This document shows, in pieces, positions 14,340 to 22,659 of a DNA stretch of 64,000 nucleotides. Source of the DNA: Paractinoplanes deccanensis (lineage in GTDB: Bacteria; Actinomycetota; Actinomycetes; Mycobacteriales; Micromonosporaceae); assembly GCF_016862115.1 (NCBI RefSeq), contig NZ_BOMI01000115.1:1-64000 (forward strand), given 5' to 3'. The notes beneath the pieces were generated by a model, which had not been told where the DNA came from, did no database searches, and saw nothing but the letters and a program-made list of their open reading frames with translations. The position numbers and the translations under genes are program-made. Each line of letters opens with the position of its first letter. Position 1 is the stretch's first letter.

Positions 14340-14993
14340 GTGAGTGATCTTCGGGAGCTTGTTGTCCGGTGGCAGCGGGGATGGGGAGTCGCGCGCGGAC
14401 TCCCGGCGGCCGATGATCTCGGCTCGGGGCTGCGGGTCCGGTGCCTTCAGATCGGGCGGGACGTCGAATACGTGGCGCTCGACGGGGTGGCGTCCGTCGC
14501 CGGGCTGGCCGGGCTGGTCCGGCGCGAACAGGAAGTAACGTGGCTGACCGTGCCGACCGTCGAGCCCGGCCGGGCGGCCGCGGCGATCGAGGCGGCCGGG
14601 CTGGTGGTGCTCAAGCGCTCGGAGAAGCTCATGACGGTCGAGCTGGGCGAGCAGCCGCGCAGCGCGCCGCCGCCGGGCTATCGGGTCGAGTCGCGCGTCG
14701 AGGACTCGGTCGTCCGGGTGGAGGTGCTCGACCGCGAGGGCGACGTGGGCGCGCGGGGCACCATGGGCGTCGTGGGGGACGACGGCATCGCCGACCGGAT
14801 CGAGACGCTGCCCGCCCACCGGCGCCGCGGGCTGGGCAGCGCCGTCATGAGCGCGCTCGCCGAGGCCGCGCCGGCCCGGCACGGGCTGCTCATCGCCAGC
14901 GAGGACGGCCAGCGCCTCTACGCGAGGCTCGGCTGGCGGACGGTCGCCGATGTGCTGATCGCGTCGACGCCCGGCGTCACGTACCCGGAGTGA
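14340..14993 (+). CDS. GNAT-family N-acetyltransferase
   Basis: A 217-residue protein whose C-terminal half has the GNAT fold: the acetyl-CoA loop is [17 protein letters not shown] (residues about 160-176) followed by a strand and the YARLGWR motif near the end. The N-terminal half is divergent. GTG 14340 starts directly after the promoter region. The substrate is unknown. Its last 17 bases overlap the end of the convergent GyrI-like gene. Confidence 0.8.
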
Positions 14994-15847: not shown

Positions 15848-16555
15848 TCAAATCCGGGCCACCGCGTCGAGGATGGTGCCGGCGACCTCGGCCGGGCGCG
15901 AGACGGGCAGGGCGTGCGAGGCGCCGGGGACCTCGTGGACGCCCTTGGCGCCGGCGCGGTCGGCCATGAAACGGTGCAGCGCCGGCGGCACCGCGCGGTC
16001 GGCGTCGCCGAAGACGAACCAGGACGGTGTCAACCGCCAGGCCGGGGTGGCCGCGAGCAGACCGGTGGCGAGGGCGGCCTGCGTGACGGGCCGCTGGGTC
16101 GCGCCCATGACGGTGGCGCGCTCGGCGGGCAGGTCGGCGGCGAAGTGCTCGTGGAAGGCCTCCGGGCGGACGGCGTGCTCGACGCCGCCGGCGGTGAGGT
16201 GGTAGGAGGTGAGGGCCGTGCCGAGCCTGCTGCCGGGGAACTTCGCGGTCAGGGCGAGCGCGGACTCGCCCTGGTCGGGCGCGAAGGCGCTCACGTAGAC
16301 CAGGGCCGCGACCGTGGGCAGGCGGGCCGCCGCCTCGGTGACGACCATGCCGCCGTAGGCGTGGCCGGCCAGCACCACCCGCGTGCCGAGGCCGGCGACG
16401 ACGTCGCGGACGTACGAGGCGTCGCCCGCGAGGCTGCGCAGGGGATTGGCGACGGCGACCACCGGCACGCCGTTCTCCTTGAGGTGTTCGACGACGCCGT
16501 TCCAGCTCGCCGATTCGGCGAAGGCTCCGTGCACGAGCACGACGGTCGGTGTCAT
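15848..16555 (-). CDS. Alpha/beta-hydrolase-fold protein lacking the catalytic serine
   Basis: A 235-residue protein close to the EstC/salicylate-esterase-like group of alpha/beta hydrolases: VVLVHGAFAESASWNGV at the N-terminus, PSWFVFGDADRAVP in the acid-residue region and GASHALPVSRP with the catalytic His. The nucleophile elbow, normally GHSYGG, reads GHAYGG here (Ala66, codon GCC). Everything else looks well preserved, so it is likely folded but not a normal serine hydrolase. The ATG at 16555 has a good AGGAAGG site upstream. It follows 20 bases after another serine-less hydrolase gene, probably in one operon. Confidence 0.85.
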   Translation of the reverse strand: MTPTVVLVHGAFAESASWNGVVEHLKENGVPVVAVANPLRSLAGDASYVRDVVAGLGTRVVLAGHAYGGMVVTEAAARLPTVAALVYVSAFAPDQGESALALTAKFPGSRLGTALTSYHLTAGGVEHAVRPEAFHEHFAADLPAERATVMGATQRPVTQAALATGLLAATPAWRLTPSWFVFGDADRAVPPALHRFMADRAGAKGVHEVPGASHALPVSRPAEVAGTILDAVARI

Positions 16556-16575
16556 GGCGCTGTCCTTCCTGGACG

Positions 16576-17316
16576 TCATTGCCGGCCGGGGTGAGAGGCG
16601 GAACGCAGGGCCCGGATCGCCCGCTCGACGGCGCCGGTGGCCGCGGGCGACGCGCGCAGCGCGTTGAGCATCATGAAGTGGGGCGGGGCACCCTCGTAGG
16701 TGACGGTCGTCGTGCGGACACCGGCCGCTCGGAGCCTGCCGGCGTAGGCAGCGCCCTCGTCGTCGCCACGCGCGACGACGAACGTCTCCGGCGACCGGGA
16801 CGGGTCCGCGACCTCGCGGAGGCCGCACGGGTAGTACAGCGACTGGTGGATGAAGGGGATGCCGGTCGCCGACAGCGCGGCCGCCAGGGCGCCGCCGGCC
16901 TCGTCGCCCGCGACGGAGATCCGGGCGCCGTCCAGCCCGGCGAACCGGCCCCGCGCCGCGATCCACCGCGCCACGGCGTACGACTGCTCCCAAGCCTCGG
17001 CGAAGGCGCCCTCGTGCTCGACGAAGGCGATCGCCACGTGCGCCCCGACGGCGAGCTCCCGCACGAGCCGGTCGTGGGTGCCGGCGTTGCCCATCACGAA
17101 GCCGCCGCCGTGCAGGTAGAGAACCGCCGGCAGCACCCGGGTGGCCCCGGGCGGGCGCACGATACGCACCGGCACGTCGCCCACCGTCACCCACGTCTCG
17201 TCGACGTCGAGCTTCGGCGCGGGGGCGGCCTGTGCGGCCTCCAGCGCTTGGCGAGCCGAGTCGTCGCCGCGGGCGCGGTCGTCGTTGCGGGTGCGGTCGC
17301 CGGGGAGAAGCATCAT
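16576..17316 (-). CDS. HSL-type alpha/beta hydrolase, shortened and lacking the catalytic serine
   Basis: About 246 residues, against roughly 300 for the hormone-sensitive-lipase family. The oxyanion motif LYLHGGGFVMG is intact, but the nucleophile motif GDSAGG reads GDEAGG (Glu139, codon GAG). The segment between this motif and YYPCGLREV is shorter than usual, and the acid-residue region (usually DPLRDEG) reads ARGDDEG. It is therefore unlikely to be an active esterase. ATG 17316 or 17313 is preferred: a TGTCACA-type promoter lies just upstream, which would give an almost leaderless transcript. Probably heads an operon with the hydrolase at 15848-16555. Confidence 0.8.
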   Translation of the reverse strand: MMLLPGDRTRNDDRARGDDSARQALEAAQAAPAPKLDVDETWVTVGDVPVRIVRPPGATRVLPAVLYLHGGGFVMGNAGTHDRLVRELAVGAHVAIAFVEHEGAFAEAWEQSYAVARWIAARGRFAGLDGARISVAGDEAGGALAAALSATGIPFIHQSLYYPCGLREVADPSRSPETFVVARGDDEGAAYAGRLRAAGVRTTTVTYEGAPPHFMMLNALRASPAATGAVERAIRALRSASHPGRQ

Positions 17317-17325
17317 GCCAGCCGA

Positions 17326-17352
17326 GACAGGACGGCCGTGGTTTCTGTGACA
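17326..17352 (-). promoter_or_regulatory. Putative ECF41-type promoter for the hydrolase pair
   Basis: On the minus strand TGTCACA (17352-17346) is followed after exactly 16 bases by TGTC (17329-17326). The -35 element matches the known ECF41 type (TGTCACA) and the -10 resembles CGTC. It also lies within a 13-base palindrome TTCTGTGACAGAA (17343-17355). Confidence 0.6.
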
Positions 17353-17392
17353 GAAGCTTGGTGATTGCCGCGGCACGGATCAGGATGGGCAG

Positions 17393-18262
17393 GTGACGAC
17401 GGATCTGGACGATGCCACGGCGGTCTTCCTCGGCGTGCGCCCGCGGCTGTTCGGCATCGCCTATCGGATGCTCGGCAGCGCCGGCGAGGCCGAGGACCTG
17501 CTCCAGGACGTCTGGCTGCGCTGGCAGGCGTACGACCGCAGCCAGGTCACGAATCCGGCCGCGTTCCTGGCGACCACGACCACCCGGCTCGCCATCAACG
17601 AGCTCCAGTCGGCGCGCGCCCGCCGCGAGACGTACGTCGGGCCCTGGCTGCCCGAGCCCGTCGACACGAGCGCCGATCCCTATCTGGGCGCCGAACGAGG
17701 CGAGGCGCTGGAATACGCGACCCTGCTGCTGATGGAGAGGCTCAAGCCCGCCGAGCGCGCCGCCTACGTGCTCCGGGAGGCGTTCGACTACCCGTACGCG
17801 CAGATCGCCGGCATCCTCCAGACCTCCGAGCCCGCCGTGCGCCAGCTCGTCAGCCGCGCCCGCAAGCACCTGACCGAGTCGCGGCGCACACCGGTGGCCG
17901 CCGACGAGCAAAAGAGGCTGCTGGCCGCGTTCCTCGAGGCCTCCCGCGGCGGCGACCTGAGCGCCCTCGAGAAGCTGCTCGCGCCCGGCGTGGTCAGCCT
18001 CTCCGACGGCAACGGCGCGCCCGGCGTCGCCCGCCGTCCGGTCGAGGGAGCGCTGCGGGTCGCGAAGTTCATGATGGCGCTCTCCGAGTGGATCTGGGAC
18101 GGTGCCGAGCTGCGGTGGCTGGCGAGCAACGGCCAGAGCGCGCTGCTCATCCGGCTGGCCGACGGCCGGACGGCCTACCTCACGGCCGGTGCGACGGCGG
18201 AGGGCATCGACCGCGTTCTCTGGCAGATGGTTCCCGAAAAACTGTCACAAACGCTGGGGTGA
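17393..18262 (+). CDS. ECF41-family RNA polymerase sigma factor with SnoaL-like extension
   Basis: A 289-residue ECF sigma factor. Region 2 covers about 10-75 (FGIAYRMLGSAGEAEDLLQD), the linker carries the ECF41 signature WLPEP (85-89), and region 4 covers about 105-160 (AEAQI-like helix plus SEPAVRQLVSRARK). A SnoaL-like domain follows from about 170. In ECF41 proteins this extension, not a separate anti-sigma factor, regulates activity. Here two of its signature motifs are altered: DGNG (205-208) for DGGG, and VPEKL (280-284) for the usual NPDKL. The gene is divergent from the hydrolase pair and followed by an oxidoreductase with a matching promoter. Confidence 0.92.
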   Translation: MTTDLDDATAVFLGVRPRLFGIAYRMLGSAGEAEDLLQDVWLRWQAYDRSQVTNPAAFLATTTTRLAINELQSARARRETYVGPWLPEPVDTSADPYLGAERGEALEYATLLLMERLKPAERAAYVLREAFDYPYAQIAGILQTSEPAVRQLVSRARKHLTESRRTPVAADEQKRLLAAFLEASRGGDLSALEKLLAPGVVSLSDGNGAPGVARRPVEGALRVAKFMMALSEWIWDGAELRWLASNGQSALLIRLADGRTAYLTAGATAEGIDRVLWQMVPEKLSQTLG

Positions 18263-18269
18263 TCCGGTC
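18243..18269 (+). promoter_or_regulatory. Putative ECF41-type promoter for the NDH-2-like gene
   Basis: TGTCACA (18243-18249), then 16 bases, then GGTC (18266-18269). The -35 lies within the last codons of the sigma factor gene. A start of transcription near 18276 would leave a leader of about 27 bases before ATG 18303. Confidence 0.65.
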
Positions 18270-18302
18270 TAAGGGGTGACTGCGAGAGAAACAGAGGACC
18301 CC

Positions 18303-19703
18303 ATGCGGACGATCCTGGTGGTGGGCGGCGGCTATGCCGGCTTCTACACGGCGTGGAAGCTGGAGAAGAAGCTCCGCCGTGACGAAGCGCGCGTCGTCGT
18401 GGTCGACCCTCGTCCCTACATGACCTACCAGCCGTTCCTCCCCGAGGTCGTGGCCGGCTCCGTCGAGGCCCGTCACGCCGCCGTGTCGATGCGCCGCCAC
18501 CTCACCAAGACCAGGATCATCGCCGGTACGGTGGTGAAGGTCGACCACGCGCACAAGACGGCCACGATCCGCCCCGCCGAGGGACCCGAGTACGCGTTCC
18601 CGTACGACATCATCGCCGTCACCGCGGGCGCCGTGACGCGCAAGCTCGACATCCCCGGCGTCACCGAGCACGCGATCGGCATGAAGCACGTCGAGGAGGC
18701 CGTGGCCATCCGCGACCGCCTGCTGACGAACTTCGACCGCGCCGCCACGCTCCCGCCCGGCCCGCAGCGCCGCCGGCTGCTGACCGTCACCTTCGTCGGC
18801 GGCGGCTTCTCGGGTGTGGAGGGCTTCGGCGAGCTGCTGTCGCTGGCGACCGCGCTGGCCCGCAGATATCCCGAGCTCGACCCGGCCGAGCTCTCCTTCC
18901 ACCTGGTCGAGGCGCGCGGCCGCATCCTGCCCGAGGTGACGGACAAGCCCGGCGAGTGGGTGGTGCGCTCGCTGGAGAAGCGCGGCGCGCACATCCACCT
19001 CAACGCGGTGCTCCAGTCGGCCGACGGCGGCCACGTGGTCCTGTCGACCGGCGAGGAGTTCGACTCGGACCTCATCGTGTGGACGGTCGGCAACGCGGCG
19101 AGCCCGCTCGTGCGCAACCACACCGACCTGCCGATCGACGGCCGCGGCATGCTGATGGTCCGCGCCGACCTGCGCGTGGGTGACGCGTCGTCGTTCGTGC
19201 CGGACGCGTGGGGCGCCGGCGACGACGCGGCCGTGCCCGACCTGGCGCTGGCCGGCGCCAAACCCGGCGCCGCGACGGTGCCGAACGCGCAGCACGCCGT
19301 CCGCCAGGGCAAGCTGCTGGCGAGGAACATCGTCGCGAGCCTGCGGGGCCGCGAGCCCAAGCAGTATTTGCACCACAGCCTCGGCGTGGTGGCGACGCTG
19401 GGCCTGGGGCGGGGCATCTTCCAGTACAAGGGAATCGTCATCAAGGGCTTCCCGGCGTGGGTGATGCACCGGGGCTATCACGTGCTCGCCGTGCCGAGCT
19501 GGGAGCGCAAGGTGCGCGTCCTGCTCGTCTGGGTGACGGCCGCGTTGTTCGGGCGCGACATCGTGTCGCTGGCGTCGGTGCAGCACCCGCGCCGCGCCTT
19601 CGTGACGGGCGGCGAGGTGCCGGCCGCGTCCGAGGAGCCGGCCGCGCACGAGGTGCAGGCGGTCTCCGCCGGAGCCTCGCGTGAGCATGCCCCCTCGGCA
19701 TGA
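18303..19703 (+). CDS. NDH-2-like NAD(P)/FAD-dependent oxidoreductase
   Basis: A 466-residue flavoprotein. The N-terminal FAD-binding motif is VVGGGYAGFYTAWKLE, a second dinucleotide motif is VTFVGGGFSGVEGFGEL, and the FAD-contact motif is WGAGDDAAVPD. A C-terminal hydrophobic stretch (KVRVLLVWVTAALFGRDIV) suggests membrane attachment, as in type II NADH dehydrogenases. ATG 18303 is chosen over an upstream GTG because of the AGAGGA site and the predicted promoter. Oxidoreductases of this kind are typical neighbours of ECF41 sigma genes. Its end overlaps the next gene by 23 bases. Confidence 0.88.
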   Translation: MRTILVVGGGYAGFYTAWKLEKKLRRDEARVVVVDPRPYMTYQPFLPEVVAGSVEARHAAVSMRRHLTKTRIIAGTVVKVDHAHKTATIRPAEGPEYAFPYDIIAVTAGAVTRKLDIPGVTEHAIGMKHVEEAVAIRDRLLTNFDRAATLPPGPQRRRLLTVTFVGGGFSGVEGFGELLSLATALARRYPELDPAELSFHLVEARGRILPEVTDKPGEWVVRSLEKRGAHIHLNAVLQSADGGHVVLSTGEEFDSDLIVWTVGNAASPLVRNHTDLPIDGRGMLMVRADLRVGDASSFVPDAWGAGDDAAVPDLALAGAKPGAATVPNAQHAVRQGKLLARNIVASLRGREPKQYLHHSLGVVATLGLGRGIFQYKGIVIKGFPAWVMHRGYHVLAVPSWERKVRVLLVWVTAALFGRDIVSLASVQHPRRAFVTGGEVPAASEEPAAHEVQAVSAGASREHAPSA

Positions 19704-20061
19704 CGACGCCGTGCGGAGGTTTCTGGCCGCCTGCCTGACGGGAGACACCGCGGCGCTGGGAGCCGCCCTGCACCAGGACGCCGTCGCCACGTGCGACGGC
19801 GGCGGGGCGGTCCTCGCGGCGCTCAATCCTGTGCACGGTGCGGAGAACGTCGCCGCCCTGGTGTCCGTGCTGCTGTGTGTGCCGGGCACCGAGCTCACCC
19901 TCGCGGCGGTCAACGGCCGCGCCGGCCTGGCCCTGCGCCGCGCCGGCCGCGCCGAGGCCGTCGTCGCCACCGATTGCGCCGGCGACCTCGTGGCGGCGCT
20001 GTGGATAGTGCTCAACCCCGCGAAGCTGTCCCGTTGGCATGTCACCACAGAACATGGTTAA
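19681..20061 (+). CDS. Stand-alone SnoaL-like protein resembling the ECF41 sigma regulatory domain
   Basis: A 126-residue soluble protein consisting of one SnoaL-like (NTF2-fold) domain. It aligns by eye with the C-terminal extension of ECF41 sigma factors: RRFLAACLTGDTAAL, then CDGGGAV (DGGG at 39-42), GAENVAAL, AVNGRAGLAL and ALWIVLNPAKLSRW (NPAKL at 112-116). These motifs are closer to the ECF41 consensus than those of the sigma factor at 17393. No sigma region 2 or 4 is present. It starts at GTG 19681 (or ATG 19687) inside the oxidoreductase gene, so it is translationally coupled to it. Confidence 0.85.
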   Translation: MSMPPRHDDAVRRFLAACLTGDTAALGAALHQDAVATCDGGGAVLAALNPVHGAENVAALVSVLLCVPGTELTLAAVNGRAGLALRRAGRAEAVVATDCAGDLVAALWIVLNPAKLSRWHVTTEHG

Positions 20062-20077
20062 CAGCCCTTCGCCGCGC

Positions 20078-20098
20078 GAACGTTGAGGCACCACGTTC
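20078..20098. promoter_or_regulatory. Inverted repeat upstream of the SDR gene
   Basis: GAACGT (20078-20083) is inverted as ACGTTC (20093-20098) with a 9-base spacer, just before the ribosome site of the SDR gene. It could be the operator of the XRE-type regulator that follows that gene. Confidence 0.35.
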
Positions 20099-20112
20099 CA
20101 CAGGGAGTAATC

Positions 20113-21045
20113 GTGAGAAAAGTTAGCCTCGATTCGCAGAATCTCACCGGCCGGCTGGCCCTCGTCACCGGCGCCAACAGCGGTGTCGGCCTCGGCCTCG
20201 CCACCCGCCTGGCCGCCGCCGGCGCCGAAGTGCTCCTCGCCGTCCGCGACACCGCCAAAGGCGAGTCGGCCCTCGTCCGCATCCGTGACGAGGTGCCCGC
20301 CGCCAAGCTCTCGCTCCGCCCTCTCGACCTGGCCTCGCTCGAGTCCGTGCACGCCCTCATCGACGGCCTGCTGACCGCGGGGAGGCCCGTCGACATCCTC
20401 GTCAACAACGCCGGGGTGATGGCCCCCGCCACGCGGCACACCACCGCCGACGGCCTGGAGCTCCAGTTCGGCACCAACTTCGTCGGCCATGCCGTGCTCA
20501 CCCAGCGCCTGCTGCCGCTGCTGCGCGAGGCGAAGGCCCGCGTCACCACCGTGACGAGCAGCGCCGCGCGCCAGGGCCGGCTCGACTTCGATGACCTCCA
20601 GGCCGAGCGCCGCTATTCGCCGGTCAAGGCGTACAACAACTCCAAGCTGGCCGACCTGCTCCTCGCGCTGGAGCTCGACCGCCGCAGCCGCGCCGAGGGC
20701 TGGGGCATCGTCAGCAACGCCGCACACCCCGGCACCACGCTGACCGGCCTCTACGCCGCCGGCCCGAACCTGGGGCGCCCCAAGCCCGCACCCCACGAGG
20801 CCGTCATGACCCGGTTGGCGCGCTGGGGAATCCTGGTCCAGGCCGTCCCCCAGGGCGTCCTGCCGATCCTGTACGCGGCCACGAGCCCGCATGCCGAGGG
20901 CGGCCGCCTCTACGGCCCCGACGGCTTCGGCCAGTTCACGGGCGGCCCGGCGGAGCTCACCGTCTACAAGTCCGCGCGGGACGAGGCCGCCGCCGCGCGC
21001 CTGTGGGACTACGCCGCCGGCGTACCGCAGCGAACGAAGGGCTGA
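20113..21045 (+). CDS. Short-chain dehydrogenase/reductase (SDR)
   Basis: A 310-residue classical SDR. The nucleotide-binding motif is [12 protein letters not shown], the NNAG motif lies in ILVNNAGVM, and the catalytic set is Ser (VTSSAARQG) with YNNSK in place of the usual YxxxK pattern. It resembles the retinol/protochlorophyllide-reductase-like group. GTG 20113 is preferred because GGGAG stands eight bases before it. The XRE-type regulator gene begins one base after its stop, a pairing common in actinomycetes where the regulator controls the SDR. Confidence 0.88.
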
Positions 21046-21046
21046 G

Positions 21047-21898
21047 ATGGACCGCGCGAGACTGGCCGAATATCTGCGCACGCGCCGGGAAGCGCTTCAG
21101 CCCGAGGATGTGGGGCTTCCGCGCGGGCAGCGGCGGCGGACCCGTGGCCTGCGCCGCGAGGAGGTGGCGGTGCTCAGCGACATGTCGATCGACTACTACA
21201 GCCGGCTCGAGCAGCCGCGCGGGCCGCATCCGTCCGAGCAGATGCTCACCGCTCTCGCGCGCGGGCTGCGGCTGTCGATGGAGGAGCGCGACCACCTCTT
21301 CGAGCTGGCGGGATATGCGACGCCGCGCCGGTCGGTCGACAGCGAGCACGTGAATCCGGGCATGCTGCGCATCTTCGACGGGCTGGCCGACGCGCCGGCG
21401 ATGGTTGTGTCCTCACTGGGCGAGACGTTGCTGCAGACGCGGCTCGCGGTGGCGCTGCTGGGCGACGAGAGCATCTACAGCGGGCTCGACCGGAGCAAGC
21501 ACTACCGCTGGTTCACCGACCCGGCGACACGAGCGCCGCACCCGCGCGAGGAGTGGGACGAGCAGAGCCGGCTGATCGTGGCGGACCTGCTCCAGTCGTA
21601 CACCCGCGACGGCGCGGACTCGCGGGCCGGCGCTCTGCTCGAGGCGCTGCTGCCGGCCAGCCCGTCGTTCGCGGCGCTGTGGAAGCAGCATCCGGTCGCC
21701 GGGCCCTACTGCGGGCCGGTGCGGCTGCTGCACCCGGAGGTCGGGCCGCTGGAGCTGGACTGCCAGCGGCTCCTCGACCCGGACCGGTCGCAGCAGCTCG
21801 TCGTCTACACGGCGAAACCCGGCTCCCTCTCCCAGGAACGGCTCCAGCTCCTGTCGATCATCGGCTCGACACCCACTCCTGATAGGTCGTCCTCGTGA
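21047..21898 (+). CDS. XRE-family regulator with MmyB-like ligand-binding domain
   Basis: A 283-residue regulator. The N-terminal XRE helix-turn-helix (about 1-80) contains RTRGLRREEVAVLSDMSIDYYSRLEQPR in two parts typical of this group (RGLRREEVA and YYSRLEQ). The C-terminal part matches the MmyB-like ligand-binding domain (FDGLADAPAMVVSSLGETL, then FAALWKQHPV and HPEVGPLEL). The ATG at 21047 follows the SDR stop by one base. It probably controls the SDR gene. Its 3' end overlaps the convergent NmrA-like gene by 41 bases. Confidence 0.9.
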   Translation: MDRARLAEYLRTRREALQPEDVGLPRGQRRRTRGLRREEVAVLSDMSIDYYSRLEQPRGPHPSEQMLTALARGLRLSMEERDHLFELAGYATPRRSVDSEHVNPGMLRIFDGLADAPAMVVSSLGETLLQTRLAVALLGDESIYSGLDRSKHYRWFTDPATRAPHPREEWDEQSRLIVADLLQSYTRDGADSRAGALLEALLPASPSFAALWKQHPVAGPYCGPVRLLHPEVGPLELDCQRLLDPDRSQQLVVYTAKPGSLSQERLQLLSIIGSTPTPDRSSS

Positions 21899-22598
21899 TG
21901 ACCGCGCCGTCCCGGGCGATGATGGCGTCGCCGTGCACCGCCGCGAAGAGGCCGGCGCTCTCGTCGACGACGACGGGGCGCCGGTCGCCCTGGAAGGCCA
22001 GCGTGATGCGCCCGAGCTCGTCGAGCGGAAAGACCTCGGGGCCGGCGTAGTCGCGCACCCCCATGAGCGGCTCACCGGCCGCGACCTGCGCGACGGCGTT
22101 GGCCACCTCGGCCGAGGCCATCGGCTGCACGAGCGTCGACGGCAGGCGCACCGCGGTGTCGTCGGAGGTCCACGACATCACCGCGGTGACGAACTCGAAG
22201 AACTGCGTGGCCCGCACGATCGAGTACGGGATCTTCTCCTGCTCGGCGAGCAGCGTCTCCTGGAGCACCTTGGCCCGGTAGTAGGCGAGGTCCGGCACCC
22301 GGTCGGCGCCGACGATCGACAGGATGACGATGTGCTCGGTGCCGGCGTCCTCGGCCTCGTCGATCAGGTTCTCCATGGTCTCCCGGAAGAACACCGCGGA
22401 GGCGTCGTCGAAGGTCGGCGAGTTCGTCAAGTTGATGACCGTTTGCGCGCCCTTGATGGCCTCCGCGACGCCCTTGCCGCTGCTCAGGTCGACGCCGTTG
22501 GAGAGCGAGTAGGGCGCCGCCTCGTGCCCCTGAGCGTTGAGGAGCTTGACGACCTGCGAGCCGATCAGCCCGGTGCCGCCGATGACAGCGATCTTCAT
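21858..22598 (-). CDS. NmrA-like NAD(P)-binding oxidoreductase
   Basis: A 246-residue atypical SDR: the dinucleotide motif is IGGTGLIGSQVVKLL, followed by INLTNSPTFDD, HIVILSIVGADRV and YSIVRATQFFEFV, which are characteristic of the NmrA-type oxidoreductases commonly found beside ECF41 sigma genes. ATG 22598 has a GGAAGG site about ten bases upstream. A TGTCACA-N16-GGTC promoter lies 28 bases or so before it, linking it to the sigma factor at 17393 despite the SDR and XRE genes between them. Confidence 0.9.
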   Translation of the reverse strand: MKIAVIGGTGLIGSQVVKLLNAQGHEAAPYSLSNGVDLSSGKGVAEAIKGAQTVINLTNSPTFDDASAVFFRETMENLIDEAEDAGTEHIVILSIVGADRVPDLAYYRAKVLQETLLAEQEKIPYSIVRATQFFEFVTAVMSWTSDDTAVRLPSTLVQPMASAEVANAVAQVAAGEPLMGVRDYAGPEVFPLDELGRITLAFQGDRRPVVVDESAGLFAAVHGDAIIARDGAVITRTTYQEWVSSR

Positions 22599-22632
22599 GG
22601 TCCTGTGCCTTCCGTGGTCGTGTTTCCCCAAG

Positions 22633-22659
22633 GACCACGGGGCCCGGCCGGATGTGACA
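22633..22659 (-). promoter_or_regulatory. Putative ECF41-type promoter for the NmrA-like gene
   Basis: On the minus strand TGTCACA (22659-22653), 16 bases, then GGTC (22636-22633). The expected transcription start near 22626 leaves a leader of about 28 bases, nearly the same geometry as at 18243-18303. Confidence 0.65.

Follow-up and report, generated by a model that had tools for sequence, protein, structure and literature searches.

The 64,000-nucleotide stretch of Paractinoplanes deccanensis DNA analysed here (the window) carries, on the plus strand at 17393-18262, a gene for an ECF41 sigma factor composed of sigma2, a YVGPWLPEP linker, sigma4 (PF04542/PF08281) and a C-terminal SnoaL-like domain. 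On one side of it lies a minus-strand unit of two alpha/beta hydrolase genes, the first encoding an Abhydrolase_3 protein (16576-17316; PF07859, E 5.9e-23) and the second an Abhydrolase_6 protein (15848-16552; PF12697, E 1.3e-21). On the other side follow plus-strand genes for an NDH-2-like pyridine nucleotide-disulphide oxidoreductase (18303-19703; PF07992, E 4.2e-34), a free-standing homologue of the ECF41 C-terminal SnoaL-like regulatory domain (19687-20061, with a possible GTG start at 19681), an SDR oxidoreductase (20113-21045; PF00106, E 2.3e-23) and an XRE/MmyB-like regulator (21047-21898; PF17765, E 5.8e-42, and PF13560). An NmrA-like NAD(P)-binding protein, of the epimerase/NmrA class of ECF41 targets, is encoded beyond these on the minus strand (21858-22598; PF13460, E 3.4e-10; PF05368, E 4.8e-07). 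The SnoaL-like ORF, which was overlooked in the first reading of the sequence, overlaps the end of the NDH-2-like gene by 17 nt, and the SDR gene starts about 50 bp past it, possibly on the same transcript. The preliminary description held that the SDR/XRE pair now separates the sigma factor from the NmrA-like gene; the pair does lie between them, but it is part of a conserved cluster, since the order sigma factor, NDH-2, SnoaL, SDR, XRE, NmrA recurs in several Actinoplanes relatives (loci L060, L062 and L067).

Assignment of the sigma factor to ECF41, as made in that description, was confirmed. The protein scored 324.7 bits against NCBIfam TIGR02957 (cut-off 323.25), covering positions 3-279 of the 281 in the model, and a C-terminal extension of approximately 100 residues follows its sigma2 and sigma4 domains. 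The WLPEP of the linker is kept in nearly all orthologues, while the place of the NPDKL-like motif near the C-terminus reads VPEKL in the window protein and NPxKL/I in most orthologues. The nearest solved structure was SigJ (PDB 5xe7, E 1e-45); the structure model of the sigma factor itself was poor (pLDDT 73, pTM 0.46). ECF41 genes are recognised by neighbours encoding a carboxymuconolactone decarboxylase, an oxidoreductase or an epimerase/NmrA protein, and here both a Pyr_redox_2 and an NmrA gene are found, the NDH-2-like gene falling in the oxidoreductase class. The promoter of the group, TGTCACA followed by a spacer of 16+/-1 and an NGTC or NGTT -10 element, is also present, with G/T-GTC at -10. 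As a TGTT -10 has been verified in Bacillus licheniformis (PMC3426412), CGTC is not itself defining for ECF41. The domains, the linker motif, the promoter and the neighbouring genes are those of ECF41, and the regulon is thus of a known kind.

Three ECF41-type promoters of identical N16 spacing were found exactly where they had been described, namely TGTCACA-N16-TGTC on the minus strand at 17326-17352 before the hydrolase pair, TGTCACA-N16-GGTC on the plus strand at 18243-18269 before the NDH-2-like gene, and TGTCACA-N16-GGTC on the minus strand at 22633-22659 before the NmrA-like gene. The start codons fit this placement, with 9 nt from the end of the -10 to the ATG at 17316, 33 nt to the ATG at 18303 and 34 nt to the ATG at 22598. 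As the longest-ORF start at 17376 lies upstream of the -35, the hydrolase gene probably begins at 17316, and its transcript would then be leaderless or nearly so. The 3' end of the sigma gene contains the -35 of the NDH-2-side promoter, a position also seen in orthologues. A scan of the window for TGTCACA-N15-17-NGTC returned these three matches and no others, as had been judged by eye, and allowing one mismatch added none. The pattern is also as rare by chance as had been supposed, with 0.27 matches expected in the window and none of 100 shuffles reaching three. Housekeeping sigma-70-type promoters were sought across 15.7-22.8 kb and none was found. A scan of the whole genome (10.6 Mb) gave 19 matches against 8 in the reversed control; isolated matches thus occur elsewhere too, but the presence of three correctly oriented sites inside 5.3 kb is exceptional. 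The TGTCACA -35 stands as described, but the CGTC-like -10 does not, the actual -10 elements being TGTC, GGTC and GGTC.

Conservation of the promoter was analysed at the loci of 80 named sigma-gene orthologues from other genomes (1.29 Mb). TGTCACA followed by GTC at the exact N16 spacing occurred 102 times in these loci, and in a permuted-heptamer control TGTCACA was the best of 630 heptamers (next 16, median 0). All other spacings gave seven occurrences or fewer, except N11, where the peak is generated by the extended -10 itself. Most conserved sites lie 30-60 bp before NmrA-like, NDH-2-like or hydrolase genes; the genes downstream comprised 67 NmrA, 12 NDH-2, 7 hydrolase and 6 sigma genes, counts that include near-duplicate loci and the window. 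The -10 of this subgroup is extended to CTGyCC[G/T]GTC-tTAGCTGG, the base before GTC being G in 60 cases, T in 41, A in one and C in none. The textbook ECF41 -10 is CGTC, and the subgroup of 17393 uses the extended element instead. A weight matrix trained on the other genomes only, with the window left out, ranked the three window sites top, at 33.0 bits for the hydrolase site, 28.1 bits for the NDH-2 site and 17.6 bits for the NmrA site. A chance origin of the sites was ruled out by the shuffles, the permuted heptamers and this ranking.

The earlier proposal that the 17393 sigma factor controls the three units is supported by the same promoter preceding orthologues of the three target kinds across Actinobacteria. 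The sigma factor would guide RNA polymerase to three or more promoters in the neighbourhood of its own gene and would so switch on the alpha/beta-hydrolase pair, the NDH-2-like flavoprotein unit and the NmrA-like NAD(P)-binding protein. We consider this regulon, together with the identity of the free-standing domain and leaving the action of that domain aside, to be likely. The NmrA-side site could alternatively be dead or dying, with the present regulon reduced to the hydrolase and NDH-2 units. Its score is the lowest of the three, below even the fifth percentile of the training sites (22.8 bits), and most of the extended -10 and the discriminator have been lost; its -35, spacing and GTC are perfect, however, it is well placed before its ATG, and among the targets in other genomes the orthologous position is the best conserved, so that we regard a two-unit regulon as unlikely.

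The genome encodes about nine other ECF41-like genes, at least one of which might drive the three promoters besides, or in place of, the 17393 sigma factor. Of the 16 remaining genome matches, four adjoin ECF41 paralogues (C77, C90, C160 and C165). Most of these paralogue-side sites carry a CGTC -10 and some have N17 spacing, whereas the 102 sites at 17393 orthologues are almost all G/T-GTC with N16, and the promoter travels across genera together with the 17393 orthologue, before the same target kinds. We infer that the three promoters are recognised by the 17393 sigma factor rather than by a paralogue, and a share for the paralogues appears rather improbable. Another of the 16 matches (C202) precedes another NmrA-like gene and is possibly a regulon member outside the window. 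The extended pattern, with up to two mismatches, was at background in the rest of the genome (9 matches against 9 in the reversed control), and we therefore claim no genome-wide regulon, only the sites in the window and possibly C202. A further site scoring 19.5 bits (C181) falls on the antisense strand where an ATPase-like ORF ends and was taken as chance.

The free-standing ORF is 37% identical to the C-terminal domain of the sigma factor (E 6e-11) and matches positions 164-279 of the TIGR02957 model (E 3.2e-22); its only match among sequences of solved structure was SigJ 5xe7, residues 174-297. It scored 21.5 bits against SnoaL_2 (PF12680), where the gathering cut-off is 27. Its AF2 model (pLDDT 92.8) has the cone-shaped alpha+beta fold of SnoaL/NTF2-like proteins, and the best PDB folds were the SnoaL domains of SigG1 (Z 12.3) and SigJ (Z 10.7). 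DGGG and NPxKL motifs are kept. Relatives were present at 22 of the 80 named loci, and at 14 of these they stand directly behind the sigma gene on the same strand, within 250 bp and in some cases overlapping it. Pairwise dN/dS values of 0.2-0.7 between related copies indicate purifying selection, and in a quick tree the free-standing domains form a group apart from the fused ones (SH-aLRT 95). A test for faster divergence of the fused domain at loci with a free copy yielded only a weak signal (p 0.013), with no correction for phylogeny, and the idea of coupled decay was set aside for these reasons; the NPDKL motif showed no signal against presence of the free copy (p 0.32).

Docking of the C-terminal domain on the linker has been reported for ECF41 elsewhere, and we propose that the fused SnoaL-like domain here would likewise dock on YVGPWLPEP and hold the sigma factor inactive. 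The NDH-2 unit would also yield the free-standing copy of this domain, which may act in trans, either by docking on the sigma factor or through pairing with the domain fused to it, and on accumulating would adjust or shut off the response in an anti-sigma-like feedback. ECF41 activity increases 20- to 120-fold when the fused domain is truncated in part and is lost when the domain is removed altogether (PMC3426412), so that there is an evident surface on which a second copy of the domain could act. From gene order, homology and fold we tentatively put forward a trans-acting feedback modulator, at slightly less than an even chance. Alternatively, the free-standing protein might make no contact with the sigma factor and bind or convert a small molecule sensed by the fused domain, as a ligand sink or enzyme. 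Many enzymes have NTF2/SnoaL folds, the fold search lists ketosteroid isomerases and epoxide hydrolases behind the sigma-factor domains, and the protein is encoded beside redox enzymes. Its closest folds and only solved-sequence match are nevertheless sigma-factor domains, it retains DGGG and NPxKL, the latter tied to linker contact, and the gene found consistently next to it is the sigma gene rather than that of one enzyme; this reading is possible but doubtful. That the ORF is what remains, without function, of a duplicated ECF41 gene in decay, as suggested by a sigma2-like part before the domain at some related loci (L073, L120, L137, L160) and a sigma4-side remnant at another (L148), is very improbable given an intact ORF with invariant residues across many genera, the dN/dS values, the high-confidence fold and sigma2-like N-termini that are themselves 50-72% identical between genera.

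The system resembles those of ECF41 in B. licheniformis and Rhodobacter sphaeroides (Wecke et al. 2012, PMC3426412) in the fused C-terminal domain and WLPEP linker, the TGTCACA -35 with N16 spacing, the oxidoreductase and NmrA/epimerase targets that neighbour the sigma gene, and the lack of a classical anti-sigma gene. In contrast to the single target described there, it has three promoters, and it differs further in its G/T-GTC -10 with conserved extension on both sides, in its hydrolase targets and in the free-standing regulatory-domain copy within a target unit. In Mycobacterium tuberculosis SigJ, the nearest solved relative of the sigma factor and the only solved-sequence match of the free-standing domain, the SnoaL_2 domain is fused, and we found no separate copy described, though the ECF classification literature may mention one. 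According to the available parts of its description, SigG1 of Streptomyces tsukubaensis, whose SnoaL domain was the top fold match, is a SnoaL-fused ECF56 factor whose co-transcribed RsfG acts as an anti-sigma factor (PMC7730460, PDB 7qh5). SigG1-RsfG pairs a SnoaL-fused factor with a regulator gene, as is proposed here, but SigG1 belongs to ECF56 and has no NPDKL motif; RsfG, set beside 19687-20061 by description only, is not presented as a SnoaL-domain copy in those parts.

Two findings extend the first reading, the subgroup-specific extended -10 and the conserved free-standing regulatory domain; the regulon itself is ordinary for ECF41. ECF41 is a widespread group described as having neither a partner protein nor an anti-sigma gene, and we know of no signal that it senses. 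The conserved arrangement suggests a previously unreported feedback control. A free copy of the inhibitory domain, genetically linked to the sigma gene across many genera of actinobacteria, offers a handle on whether ECF41 is set in trans and, if it is, would give the group the partner protein that it is held to lack. The extended -10 gives a testable account of how a single genome with about ten ECF41-like factors could keep their promoters separate, and orthogonal promoter/sigma pairs have practical value as tools.

It is conceivable, though we would not favour it outright, that duplicated ECF41 genes lost their DNA- and polymerase-binding parts and became trans-acting regulators of the intact sigma factor, made from its own inhibitory domain. 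The remnant is often SnoaL alone and sometimes a sigma2-like part with SnoaL, and in some loci the regulator would be produced by the target operon of the sigma factor itself.

The product of the gene at 17393-18262 (plus strand; 289 amino acids) has sigma2 and sigma4 and carries YVGPWLPEP as its linker motif. It passed the TIGR02957 (NCBIfam) cut-off (324.7 versus 323.25 bits), narrowly missed the SigJ subfamily model NF007214 (263 versus 271), and SigJ (5xe7) is its nearest solved relative. Wecke et al. define ECF41 by these protein features and by TGTCACA-N16-CGTC promoters, which stand before carboxymuconolactone decarboxylase, oxidoreductase or epimerase/NmrA genes (PMC3426412). The assignment to ECF41 made in the preliminary description therefore now rests on tests made here of domains, linker motif, TIGR02957 and SigJ relation.

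The regulon proposed for this factor was supported, and is mostly ordinary for ECF41. All three TGTCACA-N16-NGTC sites were present as originally placed and spaced, at 17326-17352 (minus) before the hydrolase pair, 18243-18269 (plus) before the NDH-2-like gene and 22633-22659 (minus) before the NmrA-like gene. They were the sole matches in the window (three versus 0.27 expected; none of 100 shuffles reached three), within which no near misses of the pattern were found. A scan of the 10.6 Mb genome (260 contigs) gave 19 matches versus eight for a reversed control; of the 16 outside the window, four adjoin other ECF41-like genes and one precedes another NmrA-like gene.

Window genes and motif were mapped onto orthologue neighbourhoods (20 from the genus and its order; 80 named loci), the nearest relatives searched being Actinoplanes and kin. 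In the 80 named loci TGTCACA was followed by GTC at N16 102 times, with other spacings at most seven except N11 (49, the TGTC within the extended -10) and other permutations of the heptamer at most 16 at N16 (median 0). The base preceding GTC was G in 60 cases, T in 41, A in one and C in none. Downstream genes were NmrA-like (67), NDH-2 (12), hydrolases (seven) and the sigma gene itself (six), counts that include near-duplicate loci and the window; site-to-start distances were mostly 30-60 nt, and 8 nt in some orthologues, which are leaderless. The consensus was TGTCACA-N10-CTGyCC[G/T]GTC-tTAGCTGG. Its downstream part does not belong to the NmrA gene as such: among 59 promoters that precede other genes, 23 matched it at six or more of nine positions (background 0.7%). 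The tTAGCTGG element lies directly 3' of the -10, across the expected start site, and is conserved before different genes (loci L055-L075, L092-L171).

A 36-bp matrix, with training confined to the named loci (training sites: median 36, 5th percentile 22.8) scored the window sites at 33.0 (hydrolase), 28.1 (NDH-2) and 17.6 bits (NmrA), with nothing above 8 bits in the rest of the window. Judged against this background and training range, the predicted hydrolase and NDH-2 promoters are convincing; the NmrA-side site, its core perfect and its extension lost, is fairly likely to be a real promoter. The extended pattern with two mismatches was at background level genome-wide, and thus no larger regulon is claimed. 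A second NmrA-like gene (L017:719-1456, contig C202 of this genome) has an ECF41-type TGTCACA-N16-CGTC 44 bp upstream (14538-14564, minus; 22.9 bits); no ECF41 gene was found on C202, and this gene is a possible trans target. In the window, the genes for the XRE regulator and the NmrA-like protein run towards each other, with an overlap of 41 bp at their 3' ends (21858-21898).

Control by one of about nine other ECF41-like genes in the genome has to be weighed. Sites adjacent to these paralogues were mostly CGTC (contigs C90, C160 and C165, and four sites in L090), with TGTC, not CGTC, on C77 and N17 spacing at some; the G/T-GTC -10 of the 17393 orthologues therefore looks like a subgroup mark, by which control of the window promoters by 17393 is favoured, though not proven. 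L090 (genome G002, C29:455668-465997) is an ECF41 array: three ECF41-like sigma genes in tandem, accompanied by two free-standing SnoaL-like ORFs and these four CGTC-type TGTCACA sites. At L086 (contig C122 of this genome) the same alpha/beta hydrolase pair (58% and 42% identity) adjoins another ECF41 paralogue; a single internal TGA was reported in its sigma frame.

The new element is a conserved free-standing regulatory domain; the subgroup-specific promoter extension comes second. The domain is encoded by an ORF absent from the preliminary description (19687-20061, plus), which begins within the end of the NDH-2 gene (18303-19703). Over 117 aa it is 37% identical to the sigma factor's own C-terminal domain (E 6e-11), and it retains two motifs of the fused domain, DGGG and NPAKL. 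Its AlphaFold2 model is a confident NTF2-like fold (pLDDT 92.8), best matched in the PDB by SigG1 (Z 12.3) and SigJ (Z 10.7); general NTF2-like proteins rank closely behind. No description of a free-standing copy was found in the literature searched, a set exclusive of the 2021 ECF re-classification.

Of the 80 named loci, 22 carried domain-only ORFs, a count biased because loci were chosen around the sigma gene; these loci belong to Actinoplanes/Paractinoplanes, Asanoa, Saccharothrix, Kutzneria, Kribbella, Acrocarpospora, Agromyces, Williamsia, Streptomyces, Leifsonia, Microbacterium and others. At 14 of the 22 the ORF shared the strand of the sigma gene and followed it by no more than 250 bp, and several of these ORFs overlapped the sigma stop; in other cases, the window among them, it followed NDH-2. 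As an unbiased check, the free domain by itself served as query within the same genus: of the eight best matches outside the window, seven were no more than 2 kb from the sigma orthologue, and the eighth shared a short contig with NDH-2 and NmrA. Class-wide, three of the four best matches outside the window (G189, G131, G115) had a sigma orthologue no more than about 8 kb away, although such an orthologue is present in only 22 of 198 genomes sampled.

In ECF41 factors elsewhere the fused domain touches the linker and restrains the factor (PMC3426412; reviewed in PMC8999054); partial truncation raised activity 20- to 120-fold, complete removal abolished it, and the authors concluded that signalling presumably proceeds without a second protein (PMC3426412). 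Of the two motifs retained by the free copy, NPAKL is the one tied to the linker contact (PMC7730460). The main rival reading gives the free domain a ligand-binding or enzymatic role. The most economical reading makes the free copy a modulator acting in trans; in the window, its production from a target unit of the sigma factor itself would close a feedback loop. Among ECF factors fused to SnoaL, the nearest precedent for a partner made from the same transcript is ECF56 SigG1-RsfG, RsfG being an anti-sigma factor (PMC7730460).

In a quick tree on a short alignment, free copies grouped apart from fused domains with SH-aLRT 95, although one paralogue fell among them. Most carry a signature of their own, NPxKLxxW, and their pairwise dN/dS, which NG86 estimates only roughly at this GC content, was 0.2-0.7. 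A longer form that joins a sigma2-like N-terminus to SnoaL and has neither linker motif nor sigma4 occurs at L073:6964-8448, L120:12158-13072, L137:12373-13275 and L160:7982-9490 (stop-to-stop ORFs); these N-termini share 50-72% identity and are conserved across genera, and the L148 copy retains a sigma4-side stretch. From these forms, a duplicated ECF41 gene looks to have been reduced stepwise to its regulatory domain, in an order of events that we infer.
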